DNA of 37,552 nt from Acidobacteriota bacterium (GTDB lineage: Bacteria > Acidobacteriota > Vicinamibacteria > Vicinamibacterales > CAVVIG01). The notes beneath the pieces are model-generated. The model saw nothing but the letters and a program-made list of their open reading frames with translations, was not told the DNA's origin and did not search any database. How positions within the stretch are numbered: position 1 is the stretch's first letter; every line of letters starts with the position of its first letter. This document shows, in pieces, positions 9,660-37,552 of the stretch. The stretch is from positions 1 through 37,552 of the forward strand of contig JADGOC010000021.1 of assembly GCA_017883165.1 (NCBI GenBank), given 5' to 3'. The position numbers and the translations under genes are program-made.

Positions 9660-10523
9660 ATGGCGCAGCAGCCGATGGCGTATCTGTATCCGGAGTTCCT
9701 CGAGAGCCAGGAGGCCCGGCCGATCCGCATCCTGGCCGAATATCTCGAACCGCTCCGGCGGTTCAAAGAGCAGAAGATCCAGGACACGGTCGTGTTTTTC
9801 GGATCGGCGCGCGTCGACAGCCGTGAGCGCGCCGAGCGCGCGCTGGCGACGCTGCGGGCGCGCGGCGTGCGCGACGCCGACGACCACTATCAGACCGAGC
9901 TGACCAAGACGCGGAAAGCGCTCGAGTGGGCGCGGTACTACGAGGACGCCCGCGAGCTCGCGCGGCAGCTCTCGGTCTGGACGCTGACGCTGCAGTCGGA
10001 GAATCACCGCTTCGTCGTGACGTCGGGCGGCGGCCCCGGCATCATGGAAGCCGCCAACCGCGGCGCGCGCGAGGGCGGCGGAAAAACCATCGGGTTGAAC
10101 ATCCGGCTGCCGTTCGAGCAGGGCGCGAACCCGTACATCACCGACGGATTGCACTTCGAGTTTCATTATTTCTTCATGCGCAAGTTCTGGTTCGCGTATC
10201 TCGCCAAGGCGCTCGTGATCTTCCCCGGCGGCTTCGGCACGCTCGACGAGCTCTTCGAGATTCTCACGCTCGTGCAGACCGACAAGCTGTCGAAGAAGAT
10301 CGCCGTGATCCTCTACGGCCGCGAGTACTGGGATCAGGTGCTCCATTTCCAGCCCATGGCGGAGTGGGGCGCCATCGCCGAAAAGGATCTCGAGCTGCTG
10401 CAGTACGCCGACACGCCGTCTGACGCCTTCGAGCAGTTGAGGAGTCACCTCATCGCGCACCATGTCGAGCCAACGACGGAGCAGGAAGCCGAAGCGCCCG
10501 GCATTGCGAAGACCCGAGGGTGA
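9660..10523 (+). CDS. LOG family protein (TIGR00730/lysine-decarboxylase-like Rossmann fold)
   Basis: The product is 287 aa from ATG at 9660; ATG at 9675 is a possible alternative. It has the two LOG motifs: GGGPGIMEA at residues 123-131 and PGGFGTLDE at 189-197. An N-terminal VVFFGSARV strand marks the Rossmann fold. Plant LOG proteins release cytokinins from nucleotide 5'-monophosphates, and E. coli PpnN in the same superfamily cleaves nucleoside monophosphates. Family annotation as lysine decarboxylase is not supported by function. An extra helical segment (about residues 75-110) between the first strand and the GGGPG motif distinguishes it from short LOG proteins. It is followed after one base by the DinB gene, so the two form an operon. 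Confidence 0.9.
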   Translation: MAQQPMAYLYPEFLESQEARPIRILAEYLEPLRRFKEQKIQDTVVFFGSARVDSRERAERALATLRARGVRDADDHYQTELTKTRKALEWARYYEDARELARQLSVWTLTLQSENHRFVVTSGGGPGIMEAANRGAREGGGKTIGLNIRLPFEQGANPYITDGLHFEFHYFFMRKFWFAYLAKALVIFPGGFGTLDELFEILTLVQTDKLSKKIAVILYGREYWDQVLHFQPMAEWGAIAEKDLELLQYADTPSDAFEQLRSHLIAHHVEPTTEQEAEAPGIAKTRG

Positions 10524-23646: not shown

Positions 23647-24618
23647 TCAGGGGAGACGATGGACGAGCACTTCCGTCGCGTGGTGCACCGTCGCGAGGAG
23701 CGGGGCGTAGGTGAAGGCGAGCGATGCGGCCGCGGCCACCACCAGCGTGAGGCGCGCCGACGATGTGCGGCGACGTGCAGCGTCGCGAGGCGGCGGCTCG
23801 TCGATCAGCCGCAGCACGCGCGAGGTGATTTCTCCGCCGCCGACCAGCGTGCTGATTGGCTCGGTGCAGGGCGTGAGCGCCGGCATCAGGCGCGCGACCT
23901 TGACGAGCGCCGACGCCAGCGCGAGGCGCCCGGCGCGATCCGTGACGGCCGAGGCGGTCGCGTCCGCGGCGAGTTCGGCTGCTTCGGCCCACCCGCGTTC
24001 GAGCCGGCGCGCGGCCCGCGTCCAGCCGAGCAGATCCGGCGTGCCGCGCATTGCGAGGCGCTTCAGGTTGTCCCAGGCGCGGTGATGGCTGACCTCGTGA
24101 CTGATGCTCGCGGCGAGCTCCTCGGGCGTCAGCGCGTCGATGAGCCCGCGCGTCACGAGCAGCCGCGACCGCACGATCCCGACGAGCGCCATGACGGGCT
24201 GCTCCGCCTCGACCCGGAAGGCGGGGATGCCGATGCCGTCGAGCGCGAGCGGCTCCGCCGTTTGCGTCCAGGCGCGCGCCCGTCCAATCGCGTGCCACCA
24301 GGCGACCGCGCCCCGCGCGAACGCGTTGACGAGCAGCGCGCCGGCCGCCGCCGCGGCGAGCGTCAGCGTGAGATCGAAGCCTTCGGTGAATTCGCGCGGC
24401 TCGAACTTCCAGTACGAGGGGACAAAGACGAGCGCCACGAAGAGAACCGACGCCGTTGACGGCAGGAGCCGCAGCAGCAACAGCAGCGGCGCGGACCGGC
24501 GTGCGTACCGCGCCCTGCTGGTCCTGTCGGTCACGAGGGCCACGGCCGCCGAGACCGCGACGTTCGTCGCGAGAAACCACGCCAGCGCCAGCGTCGCGCC
24601 GTGCAGCAGATAGTTCAC
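23647..24618 (-). CDS. M56 family (BlaR1/MecR1-like) membrane metallopeptidase
   Basis: The product is 323 aa from GTG at 24618, overlapping the BlaI stop by 4 bases. Hydrophobic segments occur near residues 5-28, 45-70, 85-105 and 285-310. The zinc motif HEVSH in ASISHEVSHHRAWDNLKR, and downstream ELAADATA, match the M56 peptidase domain of BlaR1/MecR1. The extracytoplasmic penicillin-binding sensor of true BlaR1 is absent, so the protein is a sensor-less M56 peptidase. In characterised systems the peptidase inactivates its BlaI-type repressor; that is the likely relation here. The induction signal is unknown, and beta-lactams are not implied. Confidence 0.9.
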   Translation of the reverse strand: MNYLLHGATLALAWFLATNVAVSAAVALVTDRTSRARYARRSAPLLLLLRLLPSTASVLFVALVFVPSYWKFEPREFTEGFDLTLTLAAAAAGALLVNAFARGAVAWWHAIGRARAWTQTAEPLALDGIGIPAFRVEAEQPVMALVGIVRSRLLVTRGLIDALTPEELAASISHEVSHHRAWDNLKRLAMRGTPDLLGWTRAARRLERGWAEAAELAADATASAVTDRAGRLALASALVKVARLMPALTPCTEPISTLVGGGEITSRVLRLIDEPPPRDAARRRTSSARLTLVVAAAASLAFTYAPLLATVHHATEVLVHRLP

Positions 24619-25076
24619 GGCTCCCTCCGCCGCTTTTCGCGGATGAGCCGCTCGAGCTCGTCGAGGAGCGCCCGATCGCGCTCGGACACCGCGTCGACGA
24701 GAGAGGAGAGCACCGGCAGCGGCTCGCCTTCGCGCTGCAGCAGGCTGTGCACCAGCTCGGTCGCCACCTGGCCCTCGATCTCGGCGCGCGACGCCGTCGC
24801 ACGGTACACGAACGCGCGCCCCACTTTGCGCCGCGCCAGCAGTCCCTTCTTGAATAGCCGGTCCATCGTCGTCATCACCGTGGTGTAGGCCACGGCGGGG
24901 CCGAGCTCGTCGCAGCCGTCGCGCACGCTCGTCTCGCCATGGCGCCAGACGAGCGTCATCACGTCGCGCTCGAGCGAGCCGAGGCTGTTTTCGAGGAGCT
25001 CGTGCGACGATTTGAAGCCCCAGAACTGGAACCGGCGGCGCATTTCAGGTTGAGCGTAGGCCGTGCCGACGCGCAT
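24615..25076 (-). CDS. BlaI/MecI/CopY family transcriptional repressor
   Basis: The product is 153 aa from ATG at 25076; ATG at 25043 is an alternative. The Penicillinase_R winged-helix domain is clear: LGSLERDVMTLVWRHGETSVRD, AYTTVMTTMDRLFKKGLLARRKVGRAFVYRA. It ends in a helical dimerisation region LLDELERLIREKRR. About 33 residues precede the usual start of the family. The protein should bind an inverted-repeat operator as a dimer, and cleavage by the adjacent M56 peptidase should relieve repression. The gene starts one base after the upstream flavoprotein stop. Confidence 0.93.
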   Translation of the reverse strand: MRVGTAYAQPEMRRRFQFWGFKSSHELLENSLGSLERDVMTLVWRHGETSVRDGCDELGPAVAYTTVMTTMDRLFKKGLLARRKVGRAFVYRATASRAEIEGQVATELVHSLLQREGEPLPVLSSLVDAVSERDRALLDELERLIREKRRREP

Positions 25077-25077: not shown

Positions 25078-26346
25078 TCAACGGCCGTGAGCGCGCCGGG
25101 CGAGCGCCGTCGCGGCCACGCGGGCGCTCGACCACGCCCATTGGAAGTTGAAGCCGCCGATGCGGCCGTCCACGTCGAGAATCTCGCCCACCAGAAACAG
25201 CCCGGGGCAGACGCGCGATTCCATCGTCGCCGGATCGATTTCGGTGAGCGGGACGCCGCCCGCCGTCACCTCGGCGTAGTTATAGCCGCGGCTGCCGACG
25301 ACCGGGAGCGGCCACGCGACGAGCGCCTGCACGAGCCGGCGCCGTTCCTCGCGCGGGAAGTGCGCCAGCGCAGTGGCCGCGTCGATGTGCAGGCGCCGCA
25401 AGAGCGCCGCCGCGGCTGACGTGGGCACGAGCGTCGCCAGCCCGCTCTGCACGGAGGCTTTCGGCCGCTCCGCGGCGAGCGACGTCCACCGGCGCTCGAG
25501 ATCGTCGAACGTCAGCCCGGGGCAGAAGCTCGCCGTCAGCCGCGCGTCGTGCTCTTCGAGCGTCGCGCGGAGCCAGTGACGCGACATGTCGAGCGCCGCC
25601 GGTCCGCTGATGCCGAAGTGCGTCCACAAGAGCGCACCCCGAATCCTGGACGCGGCGCCGCCGTCCACCCAGAGCGTCAGCTCGACGTCGTGCGAGACGC
25701 CCGACAATTGGCCGTGCAGATCGTCGTCTTTCGAAAGGAGTAGGGGCGCCAGCCCCGGCGTCGTCGGCGTGATCGAGTGGCCGAGGCGCCGCGCGATCTC
25801 GAAGCCGGCGCCGTCACTGCCGGTCTTGGGCAGCGACAGGCCGCCGGTCGCGAGCACGACGGCGTCGGCGTCGTGTTCGCCGCGCGAGGTCGTGATGCGG
25901 AAGCGCTCGCCGGCGCGCGAGATGTCGAGCACGCGGTGATCGGCTCGAAGGTCGGCGCCGCTGGCGTCCGCCGCGCGGAGCAGCGCGTCGAGCACGTCGC
26001 GCGCACGGTGTGAATCGGGAAAGAGCTTGCCGTCCGCTTCCTCGCGCAGCCGCACGCCGAGCTCCTCGAAGAAGGTGATCGTGTCGGGCACGGGAAAGGC
26101 GCGAAGCACGCGGCGGATGATCGATCGTTTGCCGCCCCAGAAATCGCCGTCCGTGACCGACGCGTTCGTGACGTTGCAGCGCGATCCGCCGCTCACGAGG
26201 ATCTTCGCGCCCGGCTTCTTCGCGCCGTCCAGCAGGCGTACGGCTCGTGCCGGGTTCAGCCGTCGCGTGAAGATCGCGGTGGCCAGACCCGCGGCGCCGG
26301 CGCCGACGATCGCGGTGTCACAGGCGTGAGGAAGTGAAGGGCTCAG
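25078..26346 (-). CDS. NAD(P)/FAD-dependent oxidoreductase, HI0933/YhiN-like, with no canonical start codon
   Basis: The core region reads as a HI0933-type flavoprotein: SGGSRCNVTNA, FFEELGVRLREEADGKLFP, VLATGGLSLPKTGSDG, GFNFQWAWSS. The frame is homologous beyond the first GTG (26196). Upstream it encodes TAIVGAGAAGLATAIF, the FAD dinucleotide-binding motif (GAGAAG encoded about 26304-26287), and a KKPGAKIL segment. From the in-frame TGA at 26391-26389 to 26196 there is no ATG, GTG or TTG; only CTG at 26346-26344 could serve. The end given here uses that CTG (422 aa, normal family size); the GTG start gives 372 aa and loses FAD binding. Alternatives are a frameshift near the start or a non-functional copy. 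The gene heads the BlaI/M56 operon. Confidence 0.8.
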   Translation of the reverse strand: MSPSLPHACDTAIVGAGAAGLATAIFTRRLNPARAVRLLDGAKKPGAKILVSGGSRCNVTNASVTDGDFWGGKRSIIRRVLRAFPVPDTITFFEELGVRLREEADGKLFPDSHRARDVLDALLRAADASGADLRADHRVLDISRAGERFRITTSRGEHDADAVVLATGGLSLPKTGSDGAGFEIARRLGHSITPTTPGLAPLLLSKDDDLHGQLSGVSHDVELTLWVDGGAASRIRGALLWTHFGISGPAALDMSRHWLRATLEEHDARLTASFCPGLTFDDLERRWTSLAAERPKASVQSGLATLVPTSAAAALLRRLHIDAATALAHFPREERRRLVQALVAWPLPVVGSRGYNYAEVTAGGVPLTEIDPATMESRVCPGLFLVGEILDVDGRIGGFNFQWAWSSARVAATALARRAHGR

Positions 26347-27514: not shown

Positions 27515-27635
27515 GATGCCCAGTCATTGTAGTGACACCGACGGCGGATGGGACTCGACCCGCGCGCCAGCGGGCGTCTGAGAGCAGCACTTCCGGGCGA
27601 GTGACCGCGTGATGTAGCGTGTGTACATTAGAGGG

Positions 27636-27704
27636 TGGTGCGAAAGAGGGGATTCGAACCCCTGCGGTATTGCTACCGCCAGCCCCTCGAGCCGTCGAGA
27701 AAGG
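27636..27704 (-). repeat. tRNA-Leu(GAG) 3'-half repeat, copy 1
   Basis: Read on the minus strand, 27692-27636 is the 3' half of a class II tRNA: anticodon loop T(C)GAGGG, 3' anticodon stem GCTGG, variable arm GCGGTA-GCAA-TACCGC, T arm AGGGG-TTCGAAT-CCCCT, acceptor CTTTCGC, discriminator A, encoded CCA. The 5' half is absent. To the right, CCCCTCGA (27683-27690) and TCGAGAAAGG (27695-27704) form an imperfect inverted repeat around GCCG, like a tyrosine-recombinase core site centred on the anticodon loop. Its 5'-flank tail is the shortest and lacks the TTCGCAC pair seen in copies 2-5. The 300 bases from 27515 to 27814 hold no gene besides this repeat. Confidence 0.85.
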
Positions 27705-27814
27705 CTAGCACACCGATGCGCATCAGGTTGGGTGCCCTCGGAGCGCCAAGGTGCACTGATCGGAACTCGGCCAACTCCCGTCCATGTCAGACTAGGAAGA
27801 TGGAGAATCACATA

Positions 27815-28264
27815 ATGCGTTTTGCGTGTTTGCTGTTCGCGCTTTCTGTTTCGGCTCAGGCGCAGTCGGGCTCGGCGCCCACGAACTCGCCGCCACCAGA
27901 GTGTCTGGACTACGCGTCGAAACTCGACAGCTGCTCGCCCTACACCTGTACGTTCACGCATCCGATGACGGGCGACAAGCTGGAACGGAAGATCATCGGT
28001 TTGGCCGGCGGCAAGTGCGTGACGATCGAATCCATGCCTGGCAAGCACAAGATGCAGTGCGAGTACCCACCGGACATGCGCAAAGCGGTGGCCGCGTTCT
28101 TCAGGGAGACACAGGCCGCTGAGGCCGCTGGCAAGACCATCGGCGGCAAGGTCGCGATGGACGGGGACGGGAAGCCGAAGTCCACGACCACTGTCGAAGG
28201 GAAGCCCGTGGTGAATCCACTCCAGCAGGCCATCGAAGGCGGCGTCTGCAAGATCGGCGGGTAG
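27815..28264 (+). CDS. Periplasmic Cys-rich protein of unknown function
   Basis: The product is 149 aa from ATG at 27815, with GGAG at 27802-27805; ATG at 27800 would add five residues. Residues 1-19 are a signal peptide (MRFACLLFALSVSAQAQ). The mature part has five Cys near CLDYASKLDSCSPYTC, GGKCV and MQCEYPPDMRKAV, then a Gly/Lys-rich stretch and a Cys near the end. The pattern C-x-F-x-HP-x-TG and GKC-x-x-x-E-x-MP recurs in uncharacterised secreted proteins of other bacteria, but I cannot name a family. It is the first gene inside the repeat array and is in the same orientation as the M20 gene. Confidence 0.78.
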   Translation: MRFACLLFALSVSAQAQSGSAPTNSPPPECLDYASKLDSCSPYTCTFTHPMTGDKLERKIIGLAGGKCVTIESMPGKHKMQCEYPPDMRKAVAAFFRETQAAEAAGKTIGGKVAMDGDGKPKSTTTVEGKPVVNPLQQAIEGGVCKIGG

Positions 28265-28288
28265 GTTTCTGATCTATGACGGCTGCCC

Positions 28289-28294
28289 TAGAAT
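28289..28294 (+). promoter_or_regulatory. -10 element of the M20 peptidase gene (probably leaderless)
   Basis: TAGAAT is followed by exactly 7 bases and then the ATG at 28302. No ribosome-binding site is present. This fits the pattern of -10 hexamer plus 6-7 bases plus start codon seen for the NamZ-like and M16 genes. Confidence 0.45.
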
Positions 28295-28301
28295 GCTGCC
28301 C

Positions 28302-29702
28302 ATGCGAATTGCGAGATTGCTGGTACTGGCCGGGATGCTATCGGGCGCGGCGCTGGATGACGCCACAAGCCGGTTGAGCCGCGACATTTTCAAGGAACTG
28401 ATCGAGATCAACACCACGGACTCGGTGGGCAACACCACCACCGCCGCGAACGCGATGGCCAAGCGTCTGAAGGACGCCGGATTTCCGGCCGCGGACGTTC
28501 AGGTGCTGGGGCCGAACGACCGCAAGGGCAACATGGTGGCTCGCCTGCGGGGAACTGGGGCCAAGAAGCCCGTCCTGATCATCGGCCACCTCGACGTCGT
28601 CGAGGCGAAGCGCGAGGACTGGACCACCGATCCGTTTCAGTTCGTGGAGAAAGACGGCTACTTCTACGGCCGCGGCACACAAGACATGAAGGTGGACGAT
28701 GCGATTCTGGTGACCACCTTCATCCGCTTCAGACAGGAGGGGTACCGTCCTGACCGCGACTTGATTCTGGCGCTGACCGCGGACGAAGAGGGCGGCACGT
28801 CGAACGGCGTCGAGTGGCTGCTGAAGAATCACCGGGACCTCATCGACGCCGAGTTCGTGTTGAATGAGGATGCGGGCGGCGTCACCACCATGAAGGGCAA
28901 GCCGGTGAACGTGGATGTGGAAGCCAGCGAGAAACAGTACGCCGATTTCGAACTGACCGTGCTCAACCCGGGTGGGCACAGTTCCCTGCCCACTCCGGAT
29001 AATGCGATCTATCACCTCTCGGACGCGCTGTCGAGGCTGGAGCACACGCCGTTTCCGCTGGAGTTCAACGCCGTGACGCGCACGTACTTCGAACGACGCG
29101 CGCCGCTCGAAAACGAGCAGACCAAGGCCGACATGAACGCGATTCTTCAGACGCCTCCCGATGCCGCAGCGGTGGCGCGGCTGAGCAAGGAACCGCGCTA
29201 CAACTCGATGCTGCGTACCACGTGCGTGGCGACTCGCCTCAGCGCCGGCCATGCCAACAATGCGCTCCCGCAAACGGCGCAAGCGATTGTGAACTGCCGC
29301 ATCCTGCCGGGCCACTCGGCCGCGGAGACGCAGCAGGCGCTGGTCCGCATGTTCGCCGATCCGAAGGTTACGGTGCATTACCTCGGGGCAATCGGCGGCG
29401 CGGCTCAAGCGTCGGACTCGAAGGGCTTTCCCACCGTGCTGCCGCCGGCCGAAGTGATGCGCCCGCTGGAGCAAGTGGCGGCGGAGATGTGGCCGGGCGC
29501 GCCGGTGATTCCGGAAATGGAGACGGGCGCTTCGGACAGCGTCTACACCATGGCCGCAGGCATCCCGACTTACGGCTTCAACGGAGTGGGACTCGACCAG
29601 GACGACGTCCGGGCGCACGGCAAGGACGAGCGAGTGCGAGTCAGCGCGTACTACGACGGGGTCGAGTTCTGTTACCGGTTCCTGAAGGCAATGACCAAGT
29701 AG
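28302..29702 (+). CDS. M20/M25/M40 family metallopeptidase (secreted)
   Basis: The product is 466 aa from ATG at 28302; ATG at 28293 lies inside the -10 element and is less likely. A short signal peptide (to about residue 18) precedes the catalytic domain. Metal-site motifs are complete: GHLDVVE near residue 95 (metal ligand His, catalytic Asp), GRGTQDMK (bridging Asp), and TADEEGGTSNG (catalytic and ligand Glu). The lid domain contains GGHSSLPTPDNAIY and the C-terminus a second-site region with METGASDS and DERVRV. The enzyme probably trims small peptides or acylated amino acids in the envelope. It is cargo in the first interval of the tRNA-fragment array. Confidence 0.93.
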   Translation: MRIARLLVLAGMLSGAALDDATSRLSRDIFKELIEINTTDSVGNTTTAANAMAKRLKDAGFPAADVQVLGPNDRKGNMVARLRGTGAKKPVLIIGHLDVVEAKREDWTTDPFQFVEKDGYFYGRGTQDMKVDDAILVTTFIRFRQEGYRPDRDLILALTADEEGGTSNGVEWLLKNHRDLIDAEFVLNEDAGGVTTMKGKPVNVDVEASEKQYADFELTVLNPGGHSSLPTPDNAIYHLSDALSRLEHTPFPLEFNAVTRTYFERRAPLENEQTKADMNAILQTPPDAAAVARLSKEPRYNSMLRTTCVATRLSAGHANNALPQTAQAIVNCRILPGHSAAETQQALVRMFADPKVTVHYLGAIGGAAQASDSKGFPTVLPPAEVMRPLEQVAAEMWPGAPVIPEMETGASDSVYTMAAGIPTYGFNGVGLDQDDVRAHGKDERVRVSAYYDGVEFCYRFLKAMTK

Positions 29703-29768
29703 GATAGGCGTTCACGCCTGTTTGACTAGCCGTCCAGCGGATCGCGTTCTCCGGCCCTTCTGCGAGTC

Positions 29769-29860
29769 TGGTGCGGAAGAGGGATTCGAACCCCTACCTT
29801 ATTGCTACCGCCAGCCCCTCAAGCAGTCGAGAAAGGCGAGCAATTCGCACACATTCGCAC
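29769..29860 (-). repeat. tRNA-Leu(GAG) 3'-half repeat, copy 2 (decayed)
   Basis: The core 29824-29769 (minus) ends in the acceptor CTTCCGC-A-CCA. The T arm has lost one G (AGGGG/CCCT), and the variable arm no longer pairs fully (GCGGTA-GCAA-TAAGGT), so this copy is drifting. The tail keeps TCGAGAAAGGC and then has two TTCGCAC units at 29844-29850 and 29854-29860, 10 bp apart. Its left flank (from about 29741) resembles that of copy 4: TTCTCCGG-x-CCTTC and GAGTC before the CCA. The 303 bases from 29703 to 30005 contain no gene. Confidence 0.8.
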
Positions 29861-30005
29861 AGCCGGCGCGCGTCACGCTGGGTCCGGCCGCGCGCGGACC
29901 GGCCCTTCTATGGCTGGGCCGCTCATGGTAGGCTCGCCTTTCAACTCAGACGTCGCGATCTGACGCCGGTGTTCATACCAAGCGGTTGGTCCCAAGGAGG
30001 TCCAT

Positions 30006-30296
30006 GTGACGCTCACATTGCCAGGGCTCATCGTGTTGATCATTATCGCGGCGATCTGCGGCGCCGTCGGCAGGGCTCTGGCCGGCGGAGCGCGCGGCGG
30101 GCTCATTGTCTCCACCGCCATCGGGTTCATCGGCGCTCTGCTCGGACCATGGGTCGCGCGCCAGTTCCACCTCGCCGAACCCTTCGTCCTCCGCGTGAGC
30201 GGCTATTCGTTTCCCATCGTGTGGTCGATCATCGGTGGCGCCCTCTTCGTGGCGCTCCTTCACCTCCTCTCCGGGCGGAGAAGGATTTGGAGCTGA
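30006..30296 (+). CDS. GlsB/YeaQ/YmgE family membrane protein
   Basis: The product is 96 aa from GTG at 30006, with a strong ribosome-binding site AAGGAGG at 29993-29999. The family pattern is three short transmembrane segments: LIVLIIIAAICGAVGRALAGG, GLIVSTAIGFIGALLGPWVARQF, and a C-terminal helix IVWSIIGGALFVALLHLL. This group (transglycosylase-associated protein by annotation) is stress-inducible in several bacteria, and its biochemical role is unknown. It is slightly longer than the usual 80-90 aa. It is the first gene of a two-gene cassette, 27 bases before the YdhR-like gene. Confidence 0.88.
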   Translation: MTLTLPGLIVLIIIAAICGAVGRALAGGARGGLIVSTAIGFIGALLGPWVARQFHLAEPFVLRVSGYSFPIVWSIIGGALFVALLHLLSGRRRIWS

Positions 30297-30323
30297 CATC
30301 GCGTTGCTCAACAGGAGAACCGA

Positions 30324-30635
30324 ATGCCACAGCAAATACTGCAGGTGAATCTTAAGTTCAGCATCCCGCGCTCCGACTTGGCAGCAGCCTGGCTCGACGT
30401 GGCGAAACCCATTGCGGACTGTCCCGGTCTCCGCTGGAAGGTGTGGTTGATGAACGAGGCAGAAAACGAGGCTGGTGGTATCTACCTTTTCGAAAGCAAA
30501 GCGGCAGCGGAGTCTTATATGGCCGGGCCGATCGTCGCGGCGCTCAAGTCGAGCCCAGCCGTCAGCAACATCAGCGCAAAGTTATTCGATGTAATGGAAA
30601 AACACAGCGCGATTACCAGAGGCCCGCTGAAGTAG
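30324..30635 (+). CDS. YdhR-like ABM-fold protein (putative monooxygenase family)
   Basis: The product is 103 aa from ATG at 30324, with AGGAG at 30313-30317. The short alpha/beta pattern matches the YdhR family of dimeric ferredoxin-like (ABM) proteins: QVNLKFSIPRSDLAAAWLDVAKPIADCPGLRWKVWL, then GGIYLFESKAAAESYMAGP, and a final strand. The family is named from structure and enzymatic activity is largely untested. It shares the cassette with the GlsB gene. Its stop overlaps the start of a P-type ATPase fragment. Confidence 0.85.
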   Translation: MPQQILQVNLKFSIPRSDLAAAWLDVAKPIADCPGLRWKVWLMNEAENEAGGIYLFESKAAAESYMAGPIVAALKSSPAVSNISAKLFDVMEKHSAITRGPLK

Positions 30636-30733
30636 CCGACAAGCGGCTCATCGCCGCATTTCACGACCTGGGCGTTTTGGTGAAGATGCTCACCGGCGAC
30701 GCGCTGGCGGTCGCGAGCGAAATCGCGCGCTGA
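30635..30733 (+). pseudogene. Fragment of a P-type ATPase (TGD motif region)
   Basis: The plus-strand frame encodes ADKRLIAAFHDLGV and VKMLTGDALAVASEIAR, then stops at 30733. This is the hinge/P-domain region just before and including the TGD motif of P-type cation ATPases, most like plasma-membrane H+-ATPase (type III) sequences. Nothing before it (no DKTGT) or after it (no GDGVND) is present. The fragment starts immediately after the YdhR stop and ends 10 bases before tRNA fragment copy 3. It is a remnant left at a recombination junction. Confidence 0.65.
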
Positions 30734-30742
30734 ATTAAAAGA

Positions 30743-30910
30743 TGGTGCGGAAAAGGGGATTCGAACCCCTACGGTATTGCTACCGCCAGCCCCTCAGCTT
30801 TCGAGAGAGGCTAGCACACGTAAACGGACGTTGACTGTGTTGACGGCCCGTCTGCAGATGTGAGCGCGCGTGTGCGCCCGCCACGACTCTATTCGCACAT
30901 TTTTCGCACC
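30743..30910 (-). repeat. tRNA-Leu(GAG) 3'-half repeat, copy 3, with conserved tail
   Basis: The core 30798-30743 (minus) has the intact variable hairpin GCGGTA-GCAA-TACCGT and T arm AGGGG/CCCCT, and acceptor TTTCCGC-A-CCA; the anticodon loop has lost one base. The tail (30799-30910) continues with TCGAGAGAGGCTAGCACAC, a GTGTGCGCCCG block near 30870, then ACGACTCT and TTCGCAC at 30892-30898 and 30903-30909 (11 bp apart). Tail blocks are shared with copies 4 and 5. The rest of the 369 bases from 30636 to 31004 contains no gene other than the ATPase fragment and the M16 promoter. Confidence 0.85.
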
Positions 30911-30992
30911 CTCGGGCCGCGCTCTAGAATATCCACCAACCCGGACTGCCAGCCACACTTGGATCCCATTCCAATGACCCGAGCGCGTCCGA

Positions 30993-30998
30993 TAAGAT
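30993..30998 (+). promoter_or_regulatory. -10 element of the M16 peptidase gene (probably leaderless)
   Basis: TAAGAT is followed by 6 bases and then the ATG at 31005, with no ribosome-binding site. This places the transcription start at or next to the start codon. Confidence 0.4.
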
Positions 30999-31004
30999 GG
31001 ACGG

Positions 31005-33881
31005 ATGACTTTCCCGTGCCTTCGCGTCGCCGTGAGCGGTGTGTTCGCCAGCGTGCTTGCCGCCGCGGTTTCGGTCGCGTCCGCCCAGAGGCCGCCCGCT
31101 GGACACGAGACGTCCGCGGCGTCGGTCGCATCCTATGGCCTTTCGCAGCAGATGCCGGTGGATCCGGAAGTCGTAGTCGGCACGCTGCCGAACGGCTTAC
31201 GCTACTACGTGCGCGCGAACGGGAAACCGGGCCACCGGGTTGAGTTGCGGCTCGTCGTCAAGGCCGGTTCGGTGCTGGAGGACGACGACCAGCGGGGGCT
31301 GGCGCACTTCGTCGAACACATGGAGTTCGAAGGCACACGGCACTTTCCGCGGCAGAGCATCGTCGACTTCCTGTCGTCGCTCGGCTTGAGTATCGGTCCG
31401 GACGCGAACGCGGTGACGAGCTACGACGACACGCAATACACGCTGCGGGTGCCGACCGACGTGCCTGGCGCACTCGATCGCGCGCTGCTGATCCTCGAGG
31501 ACTGGGCGCAGGGCGCCTCGTTCGATCAGGACGGTATCGACCGCGAGCGCGGCATCGTTCTGTCGGAATGGCGGATGCACCTCGGCGCAGGCGAGCGTAC
31601 GCAGGACAAGATCCGCCGCGTGCAGCTCGAAGGATCGCGCTACGCGGATCGGCCGCCCATCGGCGACCCTGACATCATCGAGCACGCGCAGCGTGAGCAA
31701 GTCACGCGGTTCTATCGCGATTGGTACCGTCCGGATCTGATGGCCGTGATTGTCGTGGGCGATGTCGATCGCGACGCCGCCGAAACCATGCTCAAGGAGC
31801 ATTTCTCATCCCTCTCCTCGCCCTCGCCCGAGCGATCGCGGCCCGCGTTCGATGTGCCGGACCATCCCGCCGCGCGCTACGCCGTCGCCACCGACAAGGA
31901 GACGACCGCGACCGCCGTCGAGATCAGCGACCTTCGGCCGGCGCGCAACCAGGGGTCGGTCGGCGGCTATCGCGAGCTGATGCTCGACCAGTTGTTCGCC
32001 GGCATGCTCGGCGCCAGGCTCAACGAACTCAGCCAGAGCGTGAATCCGCCATTTCTCAGAGCGGCCGCGGATCGTGAGCTGTTCCCGACGCCTAGGACGA
32101 AGGACGAGGCGGTGCTCGAGGCGCTCGTTTCGAACGATGGCGTGGCGCGCGGTCTTGGCGCGCTCGTGACCGAGCTCCAGCGGGTCGCACGGTTCGGCTT
32201 CACCGCGACCGAACTCGCGCGCGCGAAGCAGGCGATGATGCTCGGCTCCGAACGCGTGGCCACGGAAAGCCCGGACCGTGAATCCGCGAGCCGCGCAGAC
32301 GAGTACACGCGGAATTTTCTCGAGGGAGAAGCGCTGCCAACGATCTGGCAGGAGCTCGCGTTCCACCGGCGGTTCGTCCCAGCCATCACGCTGGGCGGAG
32401 TCAACGCGCTCACCGGGGAATGGTTCCCCGACCGGAACCGACTCATTGTCGTATCCGCGCCGGAAGCGGCAGGCGTCGTTCTGCCCGATCAGGCGCAGCT
32501 CGCGGCGGTGGTGAAGACCGCCTCGGCGACGCGGCTCGAGCCCTATGTGGACGCCGCGGCGGGGGAGGTCCTCTTGGACGCGCCGCCTGCACGCGGCACG
32601 ATCGTGAAGACAACGGTCCGTCCGGAGGCCGGCATCACTGAGTGGATGTTGTCGAACGGCGCAACCGTCGTGCTCAAGCCGACCAAGCTGAAGGAAGATC
32701 AAATCCTGTTCCACGCCACGGCGCCAGGGGGAACGTCGCTAGCGAGCGACATCGATTTCATTCCCGCTCGCGTCGCCGACGCCGTGGTCCCCGCGGGCGG
32801 CGTCGGGCGGCTGACCGCCGTGCTGCTCGACAAGATTCTCGCCGGCAAGGCGGTCGCCGTTACGCCGTACATCAGCGAAATCGACGAGGGAATGGGAGGC
32901 GGAAGCACGCCGCAGGATCTCGAAACGATGTTCCAGCTCCTGTACCTGCGATTCACGCAGCCGCGCGGCGATCCGACCGCGTTCGCCGCGATGACGTCGC
33001 AGGCCAGAGCGCTGCTTGCGAATCAGATGGCGAGCCCCGACGTCGTGTTCAACCAGGCCATTGAGGCCACGCTTAGCCGGAACAGCCCCCGGCGGCAGCC
33101 CGAGACGCCTGGAACGGTAGACCAGTGGAATCTCGCGAAGTCGCTGGCGTTCTACAAGTCGCGCTTCGCTGACGCAAGCAACTTCACGTTTGTCTTCGTC
33201 GGCAGCTTCACGCCGGAAACCATCAAGCCGCTCGTCGAAACCTACATCGCCAGCCTCCCAGCGACGCACGCACACGAGACATGGCGGGACCTCGGCATCG
33301 CACCGCCCTCCGGGGTCGTCGAAAAGACCATCCAGAAGGGCATCGCACCGAGGAGCGACGTGGCGATCATCCTGTCCGGGCCGTTCGAGTACGACGATGC
33401 GCACAGGCTGGCGCTTCGGACGGTGACCCTCGTGCTGGAATCGCGGCTGTTCGACACGATCCGGCAGGAGCTCGGGGGCACCTACAGCATCACGGTCACG
33501 CCGGACACGCGAGAGTTTCCTCTGCCGGAATACAGCGTTCGGATCGACTGGACGTGCGACCCCGCGCGTGCGGCGACTCTCGTGCAACGCGTCTTCGACG
33601 AGATTGCGTTCGTGAAGGCCACGCCGCTCTCACCAGATCAGGTGGCCCGAATCCGCGAGAGCCTCGTGCGCGAGTTCGAGAGAAACAGCCAGGACAACGG
33701 CTATCTCCTCAACCAGATCTCACGCCGCTACGAAAACGGCGACGCGACGGACGTAGCGGCGGTTGACAACCTGCCGGACCGGATCGCGGCGCTGACGGGC
33801 GACGCGATTCAGCAGGCGGCGCAGACCTATCTCAATGTCGAGAACTACGTGAAGGTCACGCTGGTGCCGGAGACGAAGTAG
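31005..33881 (+). CDS. M16 family (insulinase-like) metallopeptidase, secreted
   Basis: The product is 958 aa from ATG at 31005, typical for the two-domain bacterial M16 (PqqL/zinc protease) proteins. Residues 1-27 are a signal peptide ending VASAQ. The inverted zinc motif HFVEH lies at residues 101-105, with third ligand Glu181 in DRERGIVLSEWR, at the expected 76-residue spacing. Three further M16 units follow: one beginning near QVTRFYRDWYRPDL, a second half starting near WMLSNGATVVLKP, and a final unit with FTFVFVGSFTPE and QELGGTYSITV. Only the first HxxEH is intact, as normal. Probably a periplasmic peptidase. It is the sole gene between tRNA fragments copies 3 and 4. Confidence 0.94.
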   Translation: MTFPCLRVAVSGVFASVLAAAVSVASAQRPPAGHETSAASVASYGLSQQMPVDPEVVVGTLPNGLRYYVRANGKPGHRVELRLVVKAGSVLEDDDQRGLAHFVEHMEFEGTRHFPRQSIVDFLSSLGLSIGPDANAVTSYDDTQYTLRVPTDVPGALDRALLILEDWAQGASFDQDGIDRERGIVLSEWRMHLGAGERTQDKIRRVQLEGSRYADRPPIGDPDIIEHAQREQVTRFYRDWYRPDLMAVIVVGDVDRDAAETMLKEHFSSLSSPSPERSRPAFDVPDHPAARYAVATDKETTATAVEISDLRPARNQGSVGGYRELMLDQLFAGMLGARLNELSQSVNPPFLRAAADRELFPTPRTKDEAVLEALVSNDGVARGLGALVTELQRVARFGFTATELARAKQAMMLGSERVATESPDRESASRADEYTRNFLEGEALPTIWQELAFHRRFVPAITLGGVNALTGEWFPDRNRLIVVSAPEAAGVVLPDQAQLAAVVKTASATRLEPYVDAAAGEVLLDAPPARGTIVKTTVRPEAGITEWMLSNGATVVLKPTKLKEDQILFHATAPGGTSLASDIDFIPARVADAVVPAGGVGRLTAVLLDKILAGKAVAVTPYISEIDEGMGGGSTPQDLETMFQLLYLRFTQPRGDPTAFAAMTSQARALLANQMASPDVVFNQAIEATLSRNSPRRQPETPGTVDQWNLAKSLAFYKSRFADASNFTFVFVGSFTPETIKPLVETYIASLPATHAHETWRDLGIAPPSGVVEKTIQKGIAPRSDVAIILSGPFEYDDAHRLALRTVTLVLESRLFDTIRQELGGTYSITVTPDTREFPLPEYSVRIDWTCDPARAATLVQRVFDEIAFVKATPLSPDQVARIRESLVREFERNSQDNGYLLNQISRRYENGDATDVAAVDNLPDRIAALTGDAIQQAAQTYLNVENYVKVTLVPETK

Positions 33882-34039
33882 CGCGGCGTGGAGCTCAGTT
33901 GCGGAAGGCGTCCCTAACGCCCAATTCTCTGTTACTCGCCTCGCACAACCTGGTCGACGCCTCTGCTTCCCCGCGAGTGCCGCCGCACGTTTCCGTGAGG
34001 ATGTTAGCTATCGGTTAGCTGAACCGAGGGTACGGAAGA

Positions 34040-34061
34040 AAGGCCCGGTTCTCCGGGCCTT
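34040..34061 (-). terminator. Intrinsic terminator facing the tRNA 3' end
   Basis: AAGGCCCGG (34040-34048) and CCGGGCCTT (34053-34061) form a perfect 9-bp stem with a TTCT loop. On the minus strand it is followed by TTTCTTCC. It lies 9 bases beyond the CCA of copy 4, exactly where a minus-strand tRNA transcript would end. The same flank is partly recognisable beside copy 2. The remainder of the 190-base gap 33882-34070 shows no gene. Confidence 0.65.
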
Positions 34062-34070
34062 CGGTGAGTC

Positions 34071-34241
34071 TGGTGCGGAAGAGGGGATTCGAACCCCTAC
34101 GGTATTGCTACCGCCAGCCCCTCAAGCTATCGAAAAGGGTAAGCACGCACACGTAAGCAGACCTGAACTGTGCTGACGGATCGTACGCACACATGCGCGC
34201 ACGTGTGCGCCCGTCACGACTTGTTTCGCACAAATTCGCAC
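34071..34241 (-). repeat. tRNA-Leu(GAG) 3'-half repeat, copy 4, with conserved tail
   Basis: This is the best-preserved copy. Core 34127-34071 (minus) reads GC-TTGAGGG-GCTGG (anticodon GAG), variable arm GCGGTA-GCAA-TACCGT, T arm AGGGG-TTCGAAT-CCCCT, acceptor CTTCCGC, discriminator A and CCA. An intrinsic terminator sits directly 3' of it. The tail has TCGAAAAGGGTAAGCACGC, CACACGTAAGCAGAC, GTGTGCGCCCG at about 34203-34213, and TTCGCAC at 34225-34231 and 34235-34241. The 5' half of the tRNA is missing. Confidence 0.88.
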
Positions 34242-34318
34242 ACGGGTCGGCGGCTCGTTTGATCGGCCAACGGCACCTCTTGCGCTGCGGAGGTTGCTCG
34301 GCTCAATGTCTAGGCGAC

Positions 34319-34345
34319 TGATCAGGAGTTGCCTCCGCCTGATCA
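34319..34345. repeat. Inverted repeat upstream of the DUF4442 gene
   Basis: TGATCAGG (34319-34326) and CCTGATCA (34338-34345) form a perfect 8-bp inverted repeat around 11 bases. There is no T-run, so an operator or recombination-related site is as likely as a terminator. The 557-base stretch 33882-34438 otherwise contains only the terminator and repeat copy 4. Confidence 0.4.
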
Positions 34346-34418
34346 AGCTCAGCCCCACCTCTTCGAGGACGGGATTATTCTCGCCCTCCCTGCTTGGCCG
34401 AATACTCTTCAGCCCCGA

Positions 34419-34424
34419 TATACT
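34419..34424 (+). promoter_or_regulatory. -10 element of the DUF4442 gene
   Basis: TATACT is followed by 14 bases and the ATG at 34439. Transcription would start about 8 bases before the start codon. No clear -35 element is seen. Confidence 0.35.
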
Positions 34425-34438
34425 TTATCGAGCACCCG

Positions 34439-34900
34439 ATGCGTCGTGACCCTTTGCGTTTGATGAAATGGATCAATTGGTATCCGCCGTTTCTCGGCGC
34501 GAACATCCGCGTGGTTTACACCGCGCCCGATTTCCAAACGATTCGCGTGCAATCCAAACTTTCGTGGCGAAATCTGAATGCTGTGGGCACGCACTTTGGT
34601 GGCACGCTGTATGCGATGTGCGATCCCTGGTTCATGCTGATGCTGATGCGGATGCTGGGCGAGGATTACATCGTATGGGACAAGGCAGCGAGCATTCAAT
34701 TCGTGCGCCCCGGTCGCGGCACGGTGACGGCGACATTTTGCGTAACGCGCGAGCACGTGGACGAAATTCGCGCGCGTGCCGATGCGGGTGAGAAGATCGA
34801 GCCAACGTTCAGCGTCGATGTGATGGACCAGCAGGATCAGATCGTCGCGCACGTCGACAAAGTCTTGTATGTCCGCAAGAAAAAGCCAAAGGCAGAATGA
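34439..34900 (+). CDS. DUF4442 domain protein (hot-dog thioesterase-like)
   Basis: The product is 153 aa from ATG at 34439, where the family normally begins (MRRDPLRLMKWINWYPPFLGA). An in-frame TTG at 34394 would add 15 residues. The conserved DUF4442 core is complete: SKLSWRNLNAVGTHFGGTLYAMCDPWFM, DYIVWDKAASIQFVRPGRGTV and VAHVDKVLYVRKK. The fold is a PaaI-like hot-dog, so acyl-CoA thioesterase activity is possible but not shown. Codon and base composition are visibly less GC-rich than the rest of the window (for example GCATTCAATTCGTG), which supports recent acquisition. It is cargo in the last interval of the array. Confidence 0.85.
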   Translation: MRRDPLRLMKWINWYPPFLGANIRVVYTAPDFQTIRVQSKLSWRNLNAVGTHFGGTLYAMCDPWFMLMLMRMLGEDYIVWDKAASIQFVRPGRGTVTATFCVTREHVDEIRARADAGEKIEPTFSVDVMDQQDQIVAHVDKVLYVRKKKPKAE

Positions 34901-35004
34901 AACCCATCGATGTCGCACACGCTCACCCTCGATGAGTTTCAGACGTGATGTCCCCATGATTTCCTACTCTTATTGGACATCATCGATCTCGATCGATACG
35001 CCAG

Positions 35005-35163
35005 CTGAACGCCTGGCACACCGCCCAAGACACTCTCGACACCGTCACCGTGGTGGACGACGTCGTGGTCGGTGCCTTGCCGCAGATCGAAGCGCGAGTC
35101 GGCAAGCAAGCGCGATCGGCACGCAGCAAAGATCTACTTGAAGACCCAGTGGGCCACGTCTGA
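35005..35163 (+). pseudogene. 3'-terminal coding remnant without start
   Basis: A stop-free plus-strand frame encodes LNAWHTAQDTLDTVTVVDD, then VVVGALPQIEARVGKQ and SARSKDLLEDPVGHV, ending at TGA 35161-35163. It has protein-like composition but no start codon in context. It overlaps the convergent CPBP gene by 30 bases. An adjoining frame just upstream (LDIIDLDRYAS, about 34968-35006) suggests a frameshifted longer gene. I do not recognise the family. It is probably the decayed end of an earlier cargo gene. Confidence 0.4.
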
Positions 35164-35838
35164 CTCGAGGTTCCAATAGATAATCGCGAGCGCCGTCAGA
35201 TCGAACGCGGCGTGCGCGCACATCAGCATCCACAGCCGCCCCGTCATCGCGAAGATCGCGCCGAACACGAGACCGGTGCCGAGGGCTTGCTCGACGCCGG
35301 GCCATCCCTGGTCTGGATAGTGAGCCAGTCCAAACAGGACAGTTGTGATCACCACGATTGCCACTTTGGCGCCGGCGCTGGATCCGAGGAGCTTGCCGAG
35401 CCGTTCGAACAGGTAGCCACGGAACACAGTCTCTTCTCCGAAGCCCGCAACCAGCATCGCGGCGATCGCCGCCGGTAGCAGTGCCCGATTTCCCGCCAGG
35501 TAATGGTAGGTCTGATTGATCACCGGGGCGCCGACGAGCGGCATCACGATCGCCTTCATCAGCAATTTGAAGGTGCTGCCGAAAACCAACCCGATCGCGA
35601 GTCCGCCGATCCAGCTCCTTGGCCGCACATAGCCGATCTCACGCCACGGCGTTCGCGACAACCGCGCCCATAACAACACGAGCATGGCGCCCACGGGCAC
35701 GACGACAATGCCCACGGTGCCGTTGCCGGAGAAAAGGATGACGAGCGTTGCGAGGATTCCCAACGGTCCGAATCCCCGCAACGCCGCCGCGAAGCGATCG
35801 TCAGATGTCACCAGTGTGCGTGGAACCGGCGGTGTCAT
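35134..35838 (-). CDS. CPBP family intramembrane glutamic endopeptidase
   Basis: The product is 234 aa. ATG at 35838 has AGGAAG just upstream; ATG at 35892 would add 18 polar residues. Six to eight hydrophobic segments are visible. The Abi/CPBP motif is intact: EETVFR at residues 135-140 (EE-x3-R), followed by His173 in FGLAHYP (F-x3-H) and a last segment with HAAFDLTAL (H-x3-D type). Eukaryotic Rce1 in this family cleaves prenylated proteins; bacterial members have roles in bacteriocin immunity or unknown substrates. It is the only complete gene in the array on the minus strand, the same orientation as the tRNA fragments. Confidence 0.9.
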   Translation of the reverse strand: MTPPVPRTLVTSDDRFAAALRGFGPLGILATLVILFSGNGTVGIVVVPVGAMLVLLWARLSRTPWREIGYVRPRSWIGGLAIGLVFGSTFKLLMKAIVMPLVGAPVINQTYHYLAGNRALLPAAIAAMLVAGFGEETVFRGYLFERLGKLLGSSAGAKVAIVVITTVLFGLAHYPDQGWPGVEQALGTGLVFGAIFAMTGRLWMLMCAHAAFDLTALAIIYWNLESDVAHWVFK

Positions 35839-35902
35839 AACTTCCTGAGGGAGACGGCTCGCGCGTGTACTCTTGATACGCTGATGGCACACAGGAGTTC
35901 AG

Positions 35903-36337
35903 ATGTCGGCGTTATCAAGAGTCAGGAGACGACGGGCGATAAGCCTGGTCATAGTGGCGCTTGTCGCGTGCGGCAGCCTGCTCGCCTGCAACCGCAATCC
36001 CGCGGGCCCAAACGGAGGGCCACTCGCGACAGGCCGATGGACCGGCGACGGTGTTTGTCTGTCAGTGGCCGACACCGGCTGCAACCTCGCGGTCGGGTGC
36101 AACCATGGCCAGTTCCCGCGACCGACCATCCGCGCTGACGGCACGTTCGACGTCGACGGCACGTACCGCATCGAGGCTGGACCGATCTCGATCGAGCCGG
36201 CACCGCCCGCACACTTTTCGGGCGTCGTGACCGGTTCACGCCTGACCCTCACTGTAATGCCGAGCGGATCACTTCCGCCGGCATCCTACTCAATGACGCC
36301 GACGACGGCAGGGGCGTGCCCTATTCCGTGCGTGTAG
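35903..36337 (+). CDS. Small lipoprotein of unknown function
   Basis: The product is 144 aa from ATG at 35903, with CAGGAG upstream. The N-terminus has an Arg-rich n-region, a hydrophobic stretch ISLVIVALVACGSLLAC, and lipobox LLAC with Cys at residue 29, so it should be a lipid-anchored envelope protein. The mature domain is Gly/Pro-rich with several Cys (GDGVCL, TGCNLAVGCN, and AGACPIPC at the end) and alternating strands, suggesting a small disulfide-bonded beta domain. I do not recognise a family. It diverges from the CPBP gene. Confidence 0.72.
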   Translation: MSALSRVRRRRAISLVIVALVACGSLLACNRNPAGPNGGPLATGRWTGDGVCLSVADTGCNLAVGCNHGQFPRPTIRADGTFDVDGTYRIEAGPISIEPAPPAHFSGVVTGSRLTLTVMPSGSLPPASYSMTPTTAGACPIPCV

Positions 36338-36388
36338 CGTTGATCACGAATCGCGGTTGCGTTACACGAGAGTGGAAGGAAGAGAGTC

Positions 36389-36555
36389 TGGTGCGGAAGA
36401 GGGGATTCGAACCCCCACGATCTTGCGATCGCCAGCCCCTCAAGCTTGCCGAAATCATGCGCTGATGTGACCCGACGCGTTCTCTTGAGACGGCTGCTAC
36501 ACAGAAGCGCGCACCTGCGCACGCCGGCGACGACTCTATTCGCACATTTTCGCAC
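36389..36555 (-). repeat. tRNA-Leu(GAG) 3'-half repeat, copy 5, with variant variable arm
   Basis: Core 36445-36389 (minus) has the GAG anticodon loop, acceptor CTTCCGC-A-CCA and T arm GGGGG-TTCGAAT-CCCCT. The variable arm is CGATC-GCAA-GATCG, where the other copies have CGGTA-GCAA-TACCG; changes on both sides keep the hairpin paired. The tail is more diverged near the core but retains a GCGCGCACCTGCGC block, then CGACTCTA and TTCGCAC at 36539-36545 and 36549-36555. From 36338 to 36755 no gene is supported. Confidence 0.85.
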
Positions 36556-36755
36556 ACCGCTAATACTGAATCAGCGCCACTTGGCTCCAGGCTGATCAGC
36601 CGAGGCGGCTAGCGCAAACCGCGTGCGCGTTCAGATCAACCTGAGCGTCGGCGAGCGCCGAGGCCAGCTTCTCAAGGTCGTCGCCGCAATCCTTCCTTGA
36701 CACTCTCCCGTTTTTCACCGAGCATGGGCGGCCCACGTCCACCCGGGAGGTTCTT

Positions 36756-37247
36756 GTGCCCATTCCTGTCCGGCTCCGCGTCAATAACACGTCATGTGAA
36801 CACACCGTCGAACCGCGGGTCCTGCTGGTGCACTACCTGCGCGATTTCTGCGGCCTGACCGGCACGCACGTCGGCTGCGAAACCGGCATCTGCGGAGCCT
36901 GCACCGTGCTCGTCGACGGCCAGCCCGTCAAGTCGTGCACGATGTTCGCCGTCCAGGCCGACGGCTTCGACGTCACGACCATCGAAGGCATCGCAACCAA
37001 CGGCCATCTGCACCCGGTGCAGCAGGGCTTCTGGGATTGCCACGGCCTGCAATGCGGCTTCTGCACGCCGGGTATGATCATGGCGTCCGTGCACCTCCTC
37101 GCGCAGAACGCGTCGCCCAGCCGCGAACAGATCGCGGAGGGGTTGCGCGGCAACCTGTGTCGCTGCACCGGCTACTCGCACATCTTCGACGCGGTCAACC
37201 AAGCTGCGGGCCAGTCCGCCCGGATCACGGGGGTGGCGCGTGGCTGA
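36756..37247 (+). CDS. (2Fe-2S)-binding small subunit of a molybdenum hydroxylase (CO dehydrogenase/xanthine dehydrogenase type)
   Basis: The product is 163 aa from GTG at 36756, with GGGAGG at 36745-36750. Two iron-sulfur clusters are indicated: plant-ferredoxin type cysteines CETGICGAC with a downstream Cys (VKSC), and the C-terminal four-helix domain with CGFCTPGM and CRCTG. The protein carries electrons from the molybdopterin subunit. Length and motifs match CoxS/CutS-type subunits. It overlaps the large subunit start by 8 bases. The actual substrate (CO, purine, aldehyde or other) cannot be decided from this subunit. Confidence 0.95.
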   Translation: MPIPVRLRVNNTSCEHTVEPRVLLVHYLRDFCGLTGTHVGCETGICGACTVLVDGQPVKSCTMFAVQADGFDVTTIEGIATNGHLHPVQQGFWDCHGLQCGFCTPGMIMASVHLLAQNASPSREQIAEGLRGNLCRCTGYSHIFDAVNQAAGQSARITGVARG

Positions 37248-37552
37248 CACGACCACTACTCCCTACGTCGGCCGCGCGATGAGGCGCGTCGAGGATCCAC
37301 GGCTCGTCAAAGGCATCGGCACGTACGTCGACGACCTGCGGCTCTCAAGGCTGCTGCACGCTGCGATCCTCCGCAGCCCCTACGCCCACGCGCGCATCGT
37401 CCGCATCGACGTATCCGCCGCGCGCGCCATTCCCGGTGTCGTCGCGGTCCTGACCGGCGCCGACGTGAACGCCGCCTGCGGTCTCGTGCCATGCGCGGCC
37501 GCGATTCCCGATCTGAAAGCGCCGAAGCACACGGTGCTCGCGGGCGATCGGG
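37240..37552 (+). CDS. Molybdopterin-binding large subunit of molybdenum hydroxylase, N-terminal part
   Basis: The frame opens at GTG 37240 and runs past the window end; 104 codons are visible. The start VADTTTTPYVGRAMRRVEDPRLVKG and the segments TYVDDLRLSRLLHAAILRSPYAHARI and GVVAVLTGADV are those of the aldehyde-oxidase/xanthine-dehydrogenase a/b hammerhead domain. The molybdopterin-binding domain and active-site motif, which would separate CO dehydrogenase (AYRCSFR) from others, are outside the window. It is coupled to the small subunit by overlap. A medium FAD subunit was not seen between them. Confidence 0.92.
   Translation, partial: MADTTTTPYVGRAMRRVEDPRLVKGIGTYVDDLRLSRLLHAAILRSPYAHARIVRIDVSAARAIPGVVAVLTGADVNAACGLVPCAAAIPDLKAPKHTVLAGDR

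Follow-up and report, generated by a model that had tools for sequence, protein, structure and literature searches.

An array of integrase-less cassettes, probably integrated at a tRNA-Leu(GAG) gene, in a Vicinamibacterales genome

The DNA analysed here, hereafter the window, is a stretch of 37,552 nt from an Acidobacteriota assembly of the order Vicinamibacterales (GCA_017883165.1, contig JADGOC010000021.1), and it carries five copies of the 3' half of a tRNA-Leu(GAG) gene, from anticodon loop to CCA, all in one orientation. A preliminary description, made from the sequence alone, had reported such copies; they were confirmed at the positions given below and matched intact genes in related genomes. 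We consider it likely, with a probability of about 80%, that the region is an array of small integrase-less cassettes, serially and site-specifically integrated at one tRNA-Leu(GAG) gene to the right of the contig end. The genome of the window is designated G000 (window contig C150), and other G numbers denote relatives. The halves (r1 to r5) and an associated hairpin are as follows.

27636..27692, minus strand: r1, decayed 3' half with 3-4 substitutions; no adjoining tandem-repeat arm found
29769..29825, minus strand: r2, 3' half with a variable arm broken by substitutions and a 1-nt deletion in the T-arm
30743..30797, minus strand: r3, 3' half with a 1-nt deletion in the anticodon loop
34071..34128, minus strand: r4, perfect 3' half, identical at 58/58 positions to the functional tRNA of G010; the half on contig G056:C215 also matches
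36389..36446, minus strand: r5, 3' half with a compensated variable arm (GATC/GATC, not GGTA/TACC)
34040..34066, unstranded: terminator-like hairpin GGCCCGG..CCGGGCC on the CCA side of r4, identical on G056:C215 (L081)

In BLAST searches of this genome and 60 relatives, the five halves matched one another at E-values of 1e-12 to 1e-38, far beyond chance. All five near-full copies in G000 lay at this one locus and on this contig, and the remaining matches in that genome were short or weak and fell in other tRNA-Leu genes. The same 58 nt form the 3' part of intact tRNA-Leu(GAG) genes called by ARAGORN in relatives, with 100% identity between r4 and the G010 gene. The absence of a 5' half, claimed from the start, was borne out: ARAGORN called no complete tRNA in the window, and the tRNA-Leu(GAG) 5' half was not found anywhere in the G000 assembly with up to three mismatches allowed. 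A degenerate version of the r4 hairpin is present at r2. Mechanically called open reading frames (ORFs) at 27635-28264, 29722-29931, and 29771-30355 begin in or cross the halves (e.g., MVRKRGFEPLRYCYRQPLEPS...), which makes them misleading for annotation; the true start of the first gene is probably near 27812 rather than at the mechanical ORF start.

The paired variant in r5 apparently derives from the tRNA of another host, which suggests that this cassette once resided in a host whose tRNA differed; none of the 21 tRNA variants compared matched it exactly. The paired changes preserve the hairpin of the r5 variable arm, as would be expected if the halves were a functional RNA or a dispersed repeat of tRNA origin that is copied without the cargo, and the Rfam scan of the array matched no family, a result that on its own is compatible with a new RNA. 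However, all five near-full copies in the genome sit at one locus, paired variable-arm variants also occur among the functional tRNA-Leu(GAG) genes of different hosts, and halves r1 to r3 carry unpaired mutations; we judge this explanation very unlikely.

The preliminary description was right that each copy runs from the anticodon loop to the CCA, but the repeat extends beyond this loop: r3, r4, and r5 have about 100 further bases in common, ending in a tandem repeat. Four of the five halves have this tandem 10-bp repeat (TGTGCGAAnn twice) on the anticodon side. On the tRNA strand it reads TGTGCGAAnnTGTGCGAA, then nnnAGTCGT, with a period of 10 bp, and an alignment of ten units revealed a second, weaker 10-bp repeat closer to the core (CGTCAGTTCACGTCAG) in several genomes. 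We use "D2" for the repeat family that covers the further shared bases and the tandem-repeat arm beside r3, r4, and r5. The arms in the window are listed below.

29844..29861, minus strand: arm at r2, tandem repeat TGTGCGAATGTGTGCGAA near the half; most of the spacer is missing relative to the same cassette on G056:C215
30869..30909, minus strand: arm at r3, conserved D2 arm whose tandem repeat has a 1-nt length change
34216..34242, minus strand: arm at r4, TGTGCGAATTTGTGCGAAACAAGTCGT
36530..36556, minus strand: arm at r5, TGTGCGAAAATGTGCGAATAGAGTCGT

With up to three mismatches allowed, the arm pattern matched the window twice, both times exactly, versus no matches in 100 shuffles. Across ten units from 8 genomes, the mean majority fraction was 0.93 in the arm repeat and 0.97 in the anticodon stem-loop core versus 0.64 in the spacer, a contrast that is partly selected for because some units were found by containing the arm, and that was also seen in units first found via the tRNA half. 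The pattern occurred in 11/162 genomes of the order, one of which (G153) is doubtful because its match has two mismatches and no half nearby, and the reversed control gave no matches. In a scan of the phylum, the arm was found in 8 of the 396 sampled genomes, all within the order. The exact arm and half patterns had no match in IMG/VR, and the phage and plasmid collections gave weak matches only, to the tRNA part; thus, no phage or plasmid carrier was found. Two further sequences were seen beside intact tRNA-Leu(GAG) genes. A shared sequence with GCGAAGGCTGTCCCGCC lies just past the CCA of the intact tRNA in G042, G030, and G046 (L067, L068, L069), and a TGTTGTC(A/C)AG tandem repeat lies upstream of some intact genes (L040, L047, L052), perhaps representing a third arm type from an element that carries the whole tRNA.

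The intervals between the halves hold small, unrelated genes, as first described, and a further, partial interval follows r5.

27693..29768, plus strand: cassette r1-r2; small secreted-type protein (~27812-28264, no Pfam match) and M20 peptidase (28293-29702)
29826..30742, plus strand: cassette r2-r3; small membrane protein (30006-30296) with a weak Transgly_assoc match below the cut-off, and YdhR-like mono-oxygenase (30324-30635)
30798..34070, plus strand: cassette r3-r4; M16 peptidase (31005-33881), also on G056:C215 at 99.07% identity with a different neighbour
34129..36388, unstranded: cassette r4-r5; DUF4442 protein (34394-34900, plus) and CPBP/Rce1-like protease (35134-35892, minus)
35903-36337, plus strand: third gene of cassette r4-r5, a small lipoprotein-like ORF
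36447..37552, plus strand: partial cassette right of r5, cut by the contig end; [2Fe-2S] subunit (36756-37247) and the start of a large oxidoreductase subunit

The [2Fe-2S] subunit at the contig end is that of a molybdenum-type oxidoreductase. As first noted, no recombinase is visible: no recombinase family was present among the cargo of the window, and the G+C fraction was 0.56-0.67 within the array versus 0.64-0.73 before it. Arrays of this kind are often rich in toxin-antitoxin and defence genes. The cargo of the relatives' arrays includes HigB with a helix-turn-helix partner, PIN and RHH-PIN pairs, an AAA_21 ATPase matched by hidden Markov models of several defence systems, and an SNF2 helicase matched by those of BrxHI and DpdE. 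We also considered homologs of the M16 cassette as mobile units elsewhere; they reached up to 88% nucleotide identity, but their loci lacked the halves.

Gene order identifies the window as the tRNA-Leu(GAG) locus of a Vicinamibacterales genome. Two genes of the left flank are informative.

25078..26196, minus strand: flavoprotein of BaiN/HI0933 type, whose counterpart adjoins tRNA-Leu(GAG) in same-family genomes
24615..25076, minus strand: BlaI-type repressor, the next gene in order in relatives

The names BaiN/HI0933 type, BlaI, and M56 used for flank genes are presumptive. In same-family genomes, the homologues of these two genes flank tRNA-Leu(GAG) at its CCA end, and secG and tpiA are found at the opposite end, so that the order in relatives is pgk-tpiA-secG-tRNA-Leu(GAG), a variable interval, and then the left-flank genes of the window. 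The interval from tRNA to flank is 1.6 kb in G016, ~4 kb in G022, 6.6 kb in G020, and 14 kb in G006, and at least 10 kb in the window; its genes as well as its length differ among G016, G020, G022, G006, and G024. In G000, pgk is truncated at the start of contig C119, in the expected orientation, and tpiA had no match in the assembly. Because pgk is cut at the C119 edge and neither tpiA nor the tRNA 5' half was found, the head of the array most likely lies in the assembly gap between C150 and C119, and the intact tRNA-Leu(GAG) of G000 should lie in this gap, to the right of the contig end. The preliminary description had predicted an intact minus-strand tRNA on that side, and in relatives it is found exactly there.

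Arrays also occur in relatives of several families. In all eight relatives in which one contig holds both an array and a normal intact tRNA (G042, G030, G046, G032, G028, G050, G024, and G049), the intact tRNA stands at the head and the halves or arms follow downstream in the same orientation; the 5' half of the head copy in G119 is divergent. Copies at contig edges, e.g., in G039, were left out of the arrays, as they may be one gene split by assembly. The cargo differs from genome to genome, in keeping with the gain and loss between relatives that had been foreseen. In addition, a downstream half or an adjacent integrase was observed at tRNA-Leu(CAG) (L084 = G017 8359-9724; L208, L225), which looks like a second hotspot of a similar kind.

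Two relatives bear on how the halves arose, and both agree with the early proposal of tRNA-targeted, site-specific integration with its breakpoint in the anticodon loop. In G032, the downstream half is perfectly identical to the intact tRNA over ~60 bp, including a variable arm that is unique among the genomes examined. The ~3.6-kb insert holds a tannase-like gene, an amidohydrolase gene, and a small ORF without an integrase, and the distal half is preceded by a D2-type arm, as in the window. Since the host's own unusual tRNA end is perfectly duplicated, the repeat is an attachment site, and the arrangement is, on its sequence, the standard outcome of one insertion into a tRNA 3' end. The second case is contig G056:C215 (L081), which is 99.07% identical to positions 31353-34140 of the window (the M16 cassette, the terminator, and the r4 half). 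The identity stops in the anticodon stem-loop, and past this break lie an arm that was not found in the window and then a match to 29853-29992, the start of the r2-r3 cassette, at 97.9%. The order of the M16 and r2-r3 cassettes on this contig is therefore opposite to that in the window; as far as these alignments go, the cassettes move as units. Because G056 is a member of a different family and has a tRNA-Leu(GAG) unlike the half on C215, the contig is probably mis-binned and comes from a near relative of the window's genome, so that it documents reordering between close relatives and not transfer between families.

Contigs of relatives often break at such repeats, which raises the question of an assembly artefact, with the halves being broken complete tRNA genes or misjoined repeats. 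However, every half has its own flank and unique cargo, the stretch from the M16 cassette through r4 is independently confirmed by G056:C215, and similar arrays are present in many independent assemblies; this explanation has next to no chance of being correct. Complete tRNA genes at these positions, a fixed cargo order in distant species, or relatives devoid of recombinase and variation, which the preliminary description had named as contrary to its proposal, were not found.

The halves and arms form a gradient of decay: r1 is armless and carries 3-4 substitutions; r2 shows an indel as well as unpaired changes, and its arm is shortened; in r3, the loop has a deletion and the arm repeat is altered by 1 nt; r4 is a perfect copy; and r5 combines a paired variant with a perfect arm. 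Decay thus grows away from the predicted tRNA end, which fits accretion from oldest on the left to newest on the right and supports the serial accretion proposed earlier. Under the cassette reading that we favor, each cassette would circulate as a circle whose attachment site comprises the anticodon stem-loop, the tRNA 3' half, and, on the anticodon side, the arm with its tandem 10-bp repeats as predicted binding sites. Recombination in the anticodon stem-loop would rebuild an intact tRNA from the host 5' half and the cassette 3' half, and the older 3' half would be displaced leftward, so that every insertion would add one half and one arm. Old left-hand units would then decay, while new right-hand units would stay intact. 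Because the cassettes encode no recombinase, they would most likely be moved in trans by a tyrosine integrase from another element.

PF00589 genes were absent from the window and from the array contigs of G042, G030, G046, G032, G013, and G027, and no integrase gene was found in any D2 array examined, including the recent single insertion in G032. For the array of the window, this result covers the assembled part, since the head most likely lies in the gap. The window cassettes have attachment sites without an integrase gene, as in cis-mobilizable elements. Another arm type, with TTGCAAG repeats, accompanies tyrosine integrases directly after tRNA-Leu(GAG) in G050, G014, and G095, and in a diverged form in G066. 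These islands use the same tRNA and core as the window, and in G050 the arm also consists of 10-bp repeats in tandem, ~100 nt away from the core; they differ in that their integrase ends at the tRNA and their arms are of the TTGCAAG type, whereas the window has TGTGCGAA-type arms and no integrase. In G050, a 24-kb element with an integrase and a 2-kb cassette without one are arranged in tandem, with arms identical in type and nearly the same arm-proximal sequence, and this pair provides the best evidence, from sequence comparison, that cargo-only cassettes can share the site of a helper. The G050 integrase itself was considered as the helper in the window's genome and had no match in G000, where the six tyrosine-recombinase matches, none of them near a half, were Xer-like genes or fragments. 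Relatives of the G050 integrase were also observed near tRNA Leu, Gly, Arg, Gln, Thr, Phe, Val, Glu, and His genes across the order (L205-L233); because they lie close to so many different tRNA genes, this one integrase family appears to have undergone repeated changes of tRNA target.

The same observations could be explained if the array were a fossil of ordinary tRNA islands, in which each unit later lost its integrase by deletion, no mobilization in trans took place, and the cassettes have become fixed. Remnants or partial copies of integrases adjoin tRNA-Leu(GAG) in G014 and G009, indicating that such loss happens; furthermore, r1 to r3 are decayed, and several units of G042 lack their half. 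The lack of an integrase from every D2 array examined, even from the recent perfect-duplication insertion in G032, and the reordering of cassettes at the core while still 99% identical are difficult to reconcile with this explanation, which we regard as unlikely, though deserving of serious consideration. Several points also weigh against the cassette reading itself. Among the searched genomes of the order, none yielded an integrase with D2-type arms, and the helper is therefore hypothetical. Around the D2 core, arm repeats were seen on one side only, and no convincing second arm emerged when the CCA side of D2 cassettes was searched, whereas G050-type elements have arms on both sides. The G056:C215 contig is only 3 kb long and probably in the wrong bin, so that it documents reordering between near relatives but no inter-family transfer. 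Its junction falls at a 58-bp repeat and might in principle have arisen by misassembly, although the window lacks the arm found there. Finally, the decay gradient is based on five units, which are few.

The preliminary description had compared the array with an integron. Integrons and clusters of attC sites lacking integron-integrases (CALINs) are likewise one-orientation arrays of small cassettes, and the integrase-less arrays can be mobilized in trans (PMC11389934). A system of the integron kind, in which a dedicated integrase recombines sites folded from single strands, would account for the array architecture, the small cargo, the order changes, and the toxin-antitoxin genes in the array of one relative. 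A truncated integron integrase is also present elsewhere in G032: a 124-aa ORF at 814-1188 of G032:C203 (L236) corresponds to the C-terminal third of integron integrases (TIGR02249, E 3e-55), on a contig other than that of the tRNA array. However, neither strand of the arms folds better than dinucleotide shuffles (z of about -1.3 to +1.5), the core consists of a tRNA end, and a chromosomal tRNA gene serves as the target. The G032 copy is truncated, most D2 genomes went without a specific check for integron integrases, and no dedicated integrase was found with the array. Unlike integrons and CALINs, the site here is a tRNA end without an attC-like fold, and no integron integrase was found at the locus. 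The window array works like integrase-less cassette arrays but does not test as an integron, and the proposed integron-like mechanism, which we consider extremely unlikely, is not upheld.

The novelty of the array was also overstated at first, because arrays of tRNA or tmRNA 3'-end repeats with integrase-less cargo have been described (PMC3146451, PMC2764846, PMC10872708, PMC7771536). The closest precedent is that of the ssrA islands of Dehalococcoides, which stand in tandem behind one essential RNA gene, are bounded by direct repeats of its 3' end, share similarity in the 150 bp around each repeat, and reach up to 11 repeats per strain; 15 islands lack an integration module and are possible cis-mobilizable elements, while 16 keep it (PMC3146451, PMC2764846). 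Those islands have a tmRNA target, a serine recombinase, and a 20-bp repeat, whereas the window has tRNA-Leu(GAG) and a 58-bp repeat with an arm; unlike in Dehalococcoides, the cassettes here are mostly 1-5 kb (one interval is ~9 kb), and none seen with a D2-type arm has an integrase. Additive flexible islands, as presented in the available text of the reports on Methylopumilus (Methylophilaceae; tRNA-Lys repeats, PMC10872708), Actinomarinales (PMC7771536), and Alteromonas (PMC4119200, PMC5217437), likewise gain and lose cassettes at a conserved tRNA, with 3'-end repeats marking the insertions and strain-variable content; the features in common here are the same-orientation 3'-end repeats, the intact target tRNA heading the arrays of relatives (and predicted in the gap for G000), the changing cargo at one position, and the target duplication in G032. 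In that text, neither a conserved arm at each repeat nor an integrase-less class with its own arm type is described. Tycheposons, in the brief mentions of them in PMC10872708 and PMC11389934, are cargo elements that resemble the window array in targeting tRNA genes and are set apart by a tyrosine recombinase of their own.

The region is clearly a further example of a known mode of accumulation, that of additive islands and of the Dehalococcoides ssrA arrays. For the Vicinamibacterales, knowledge of which comes mostly from metagenome-assembled genomes, it marks the tRNA-Leu(GAG) gene behind pgk-tpiA-secG as an order-wide hotspot, and the arm gives a short DNA signature with which cassettes of this locus can be found. 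The helper and cargo pair of G050, with its matching arms, makes the action of an integrase in trans on cargo-only cassettes directly testable. A bolder proposal, to which we give low credence, is that small integrase-less cassettes are gathered and reshuffled at tRNA-Leu(GAG) throughout the order, by means of a dedicated bipartite site of TGTGCGAA arms and the anticodon stem-loop core and under one trans-acting integrase, as a tRNA-based counterpart of the integron. If a helper for the TGTGCGAA arms were found, the locus would represent a tRNA-based cassette system comparable in its effect to integrons.

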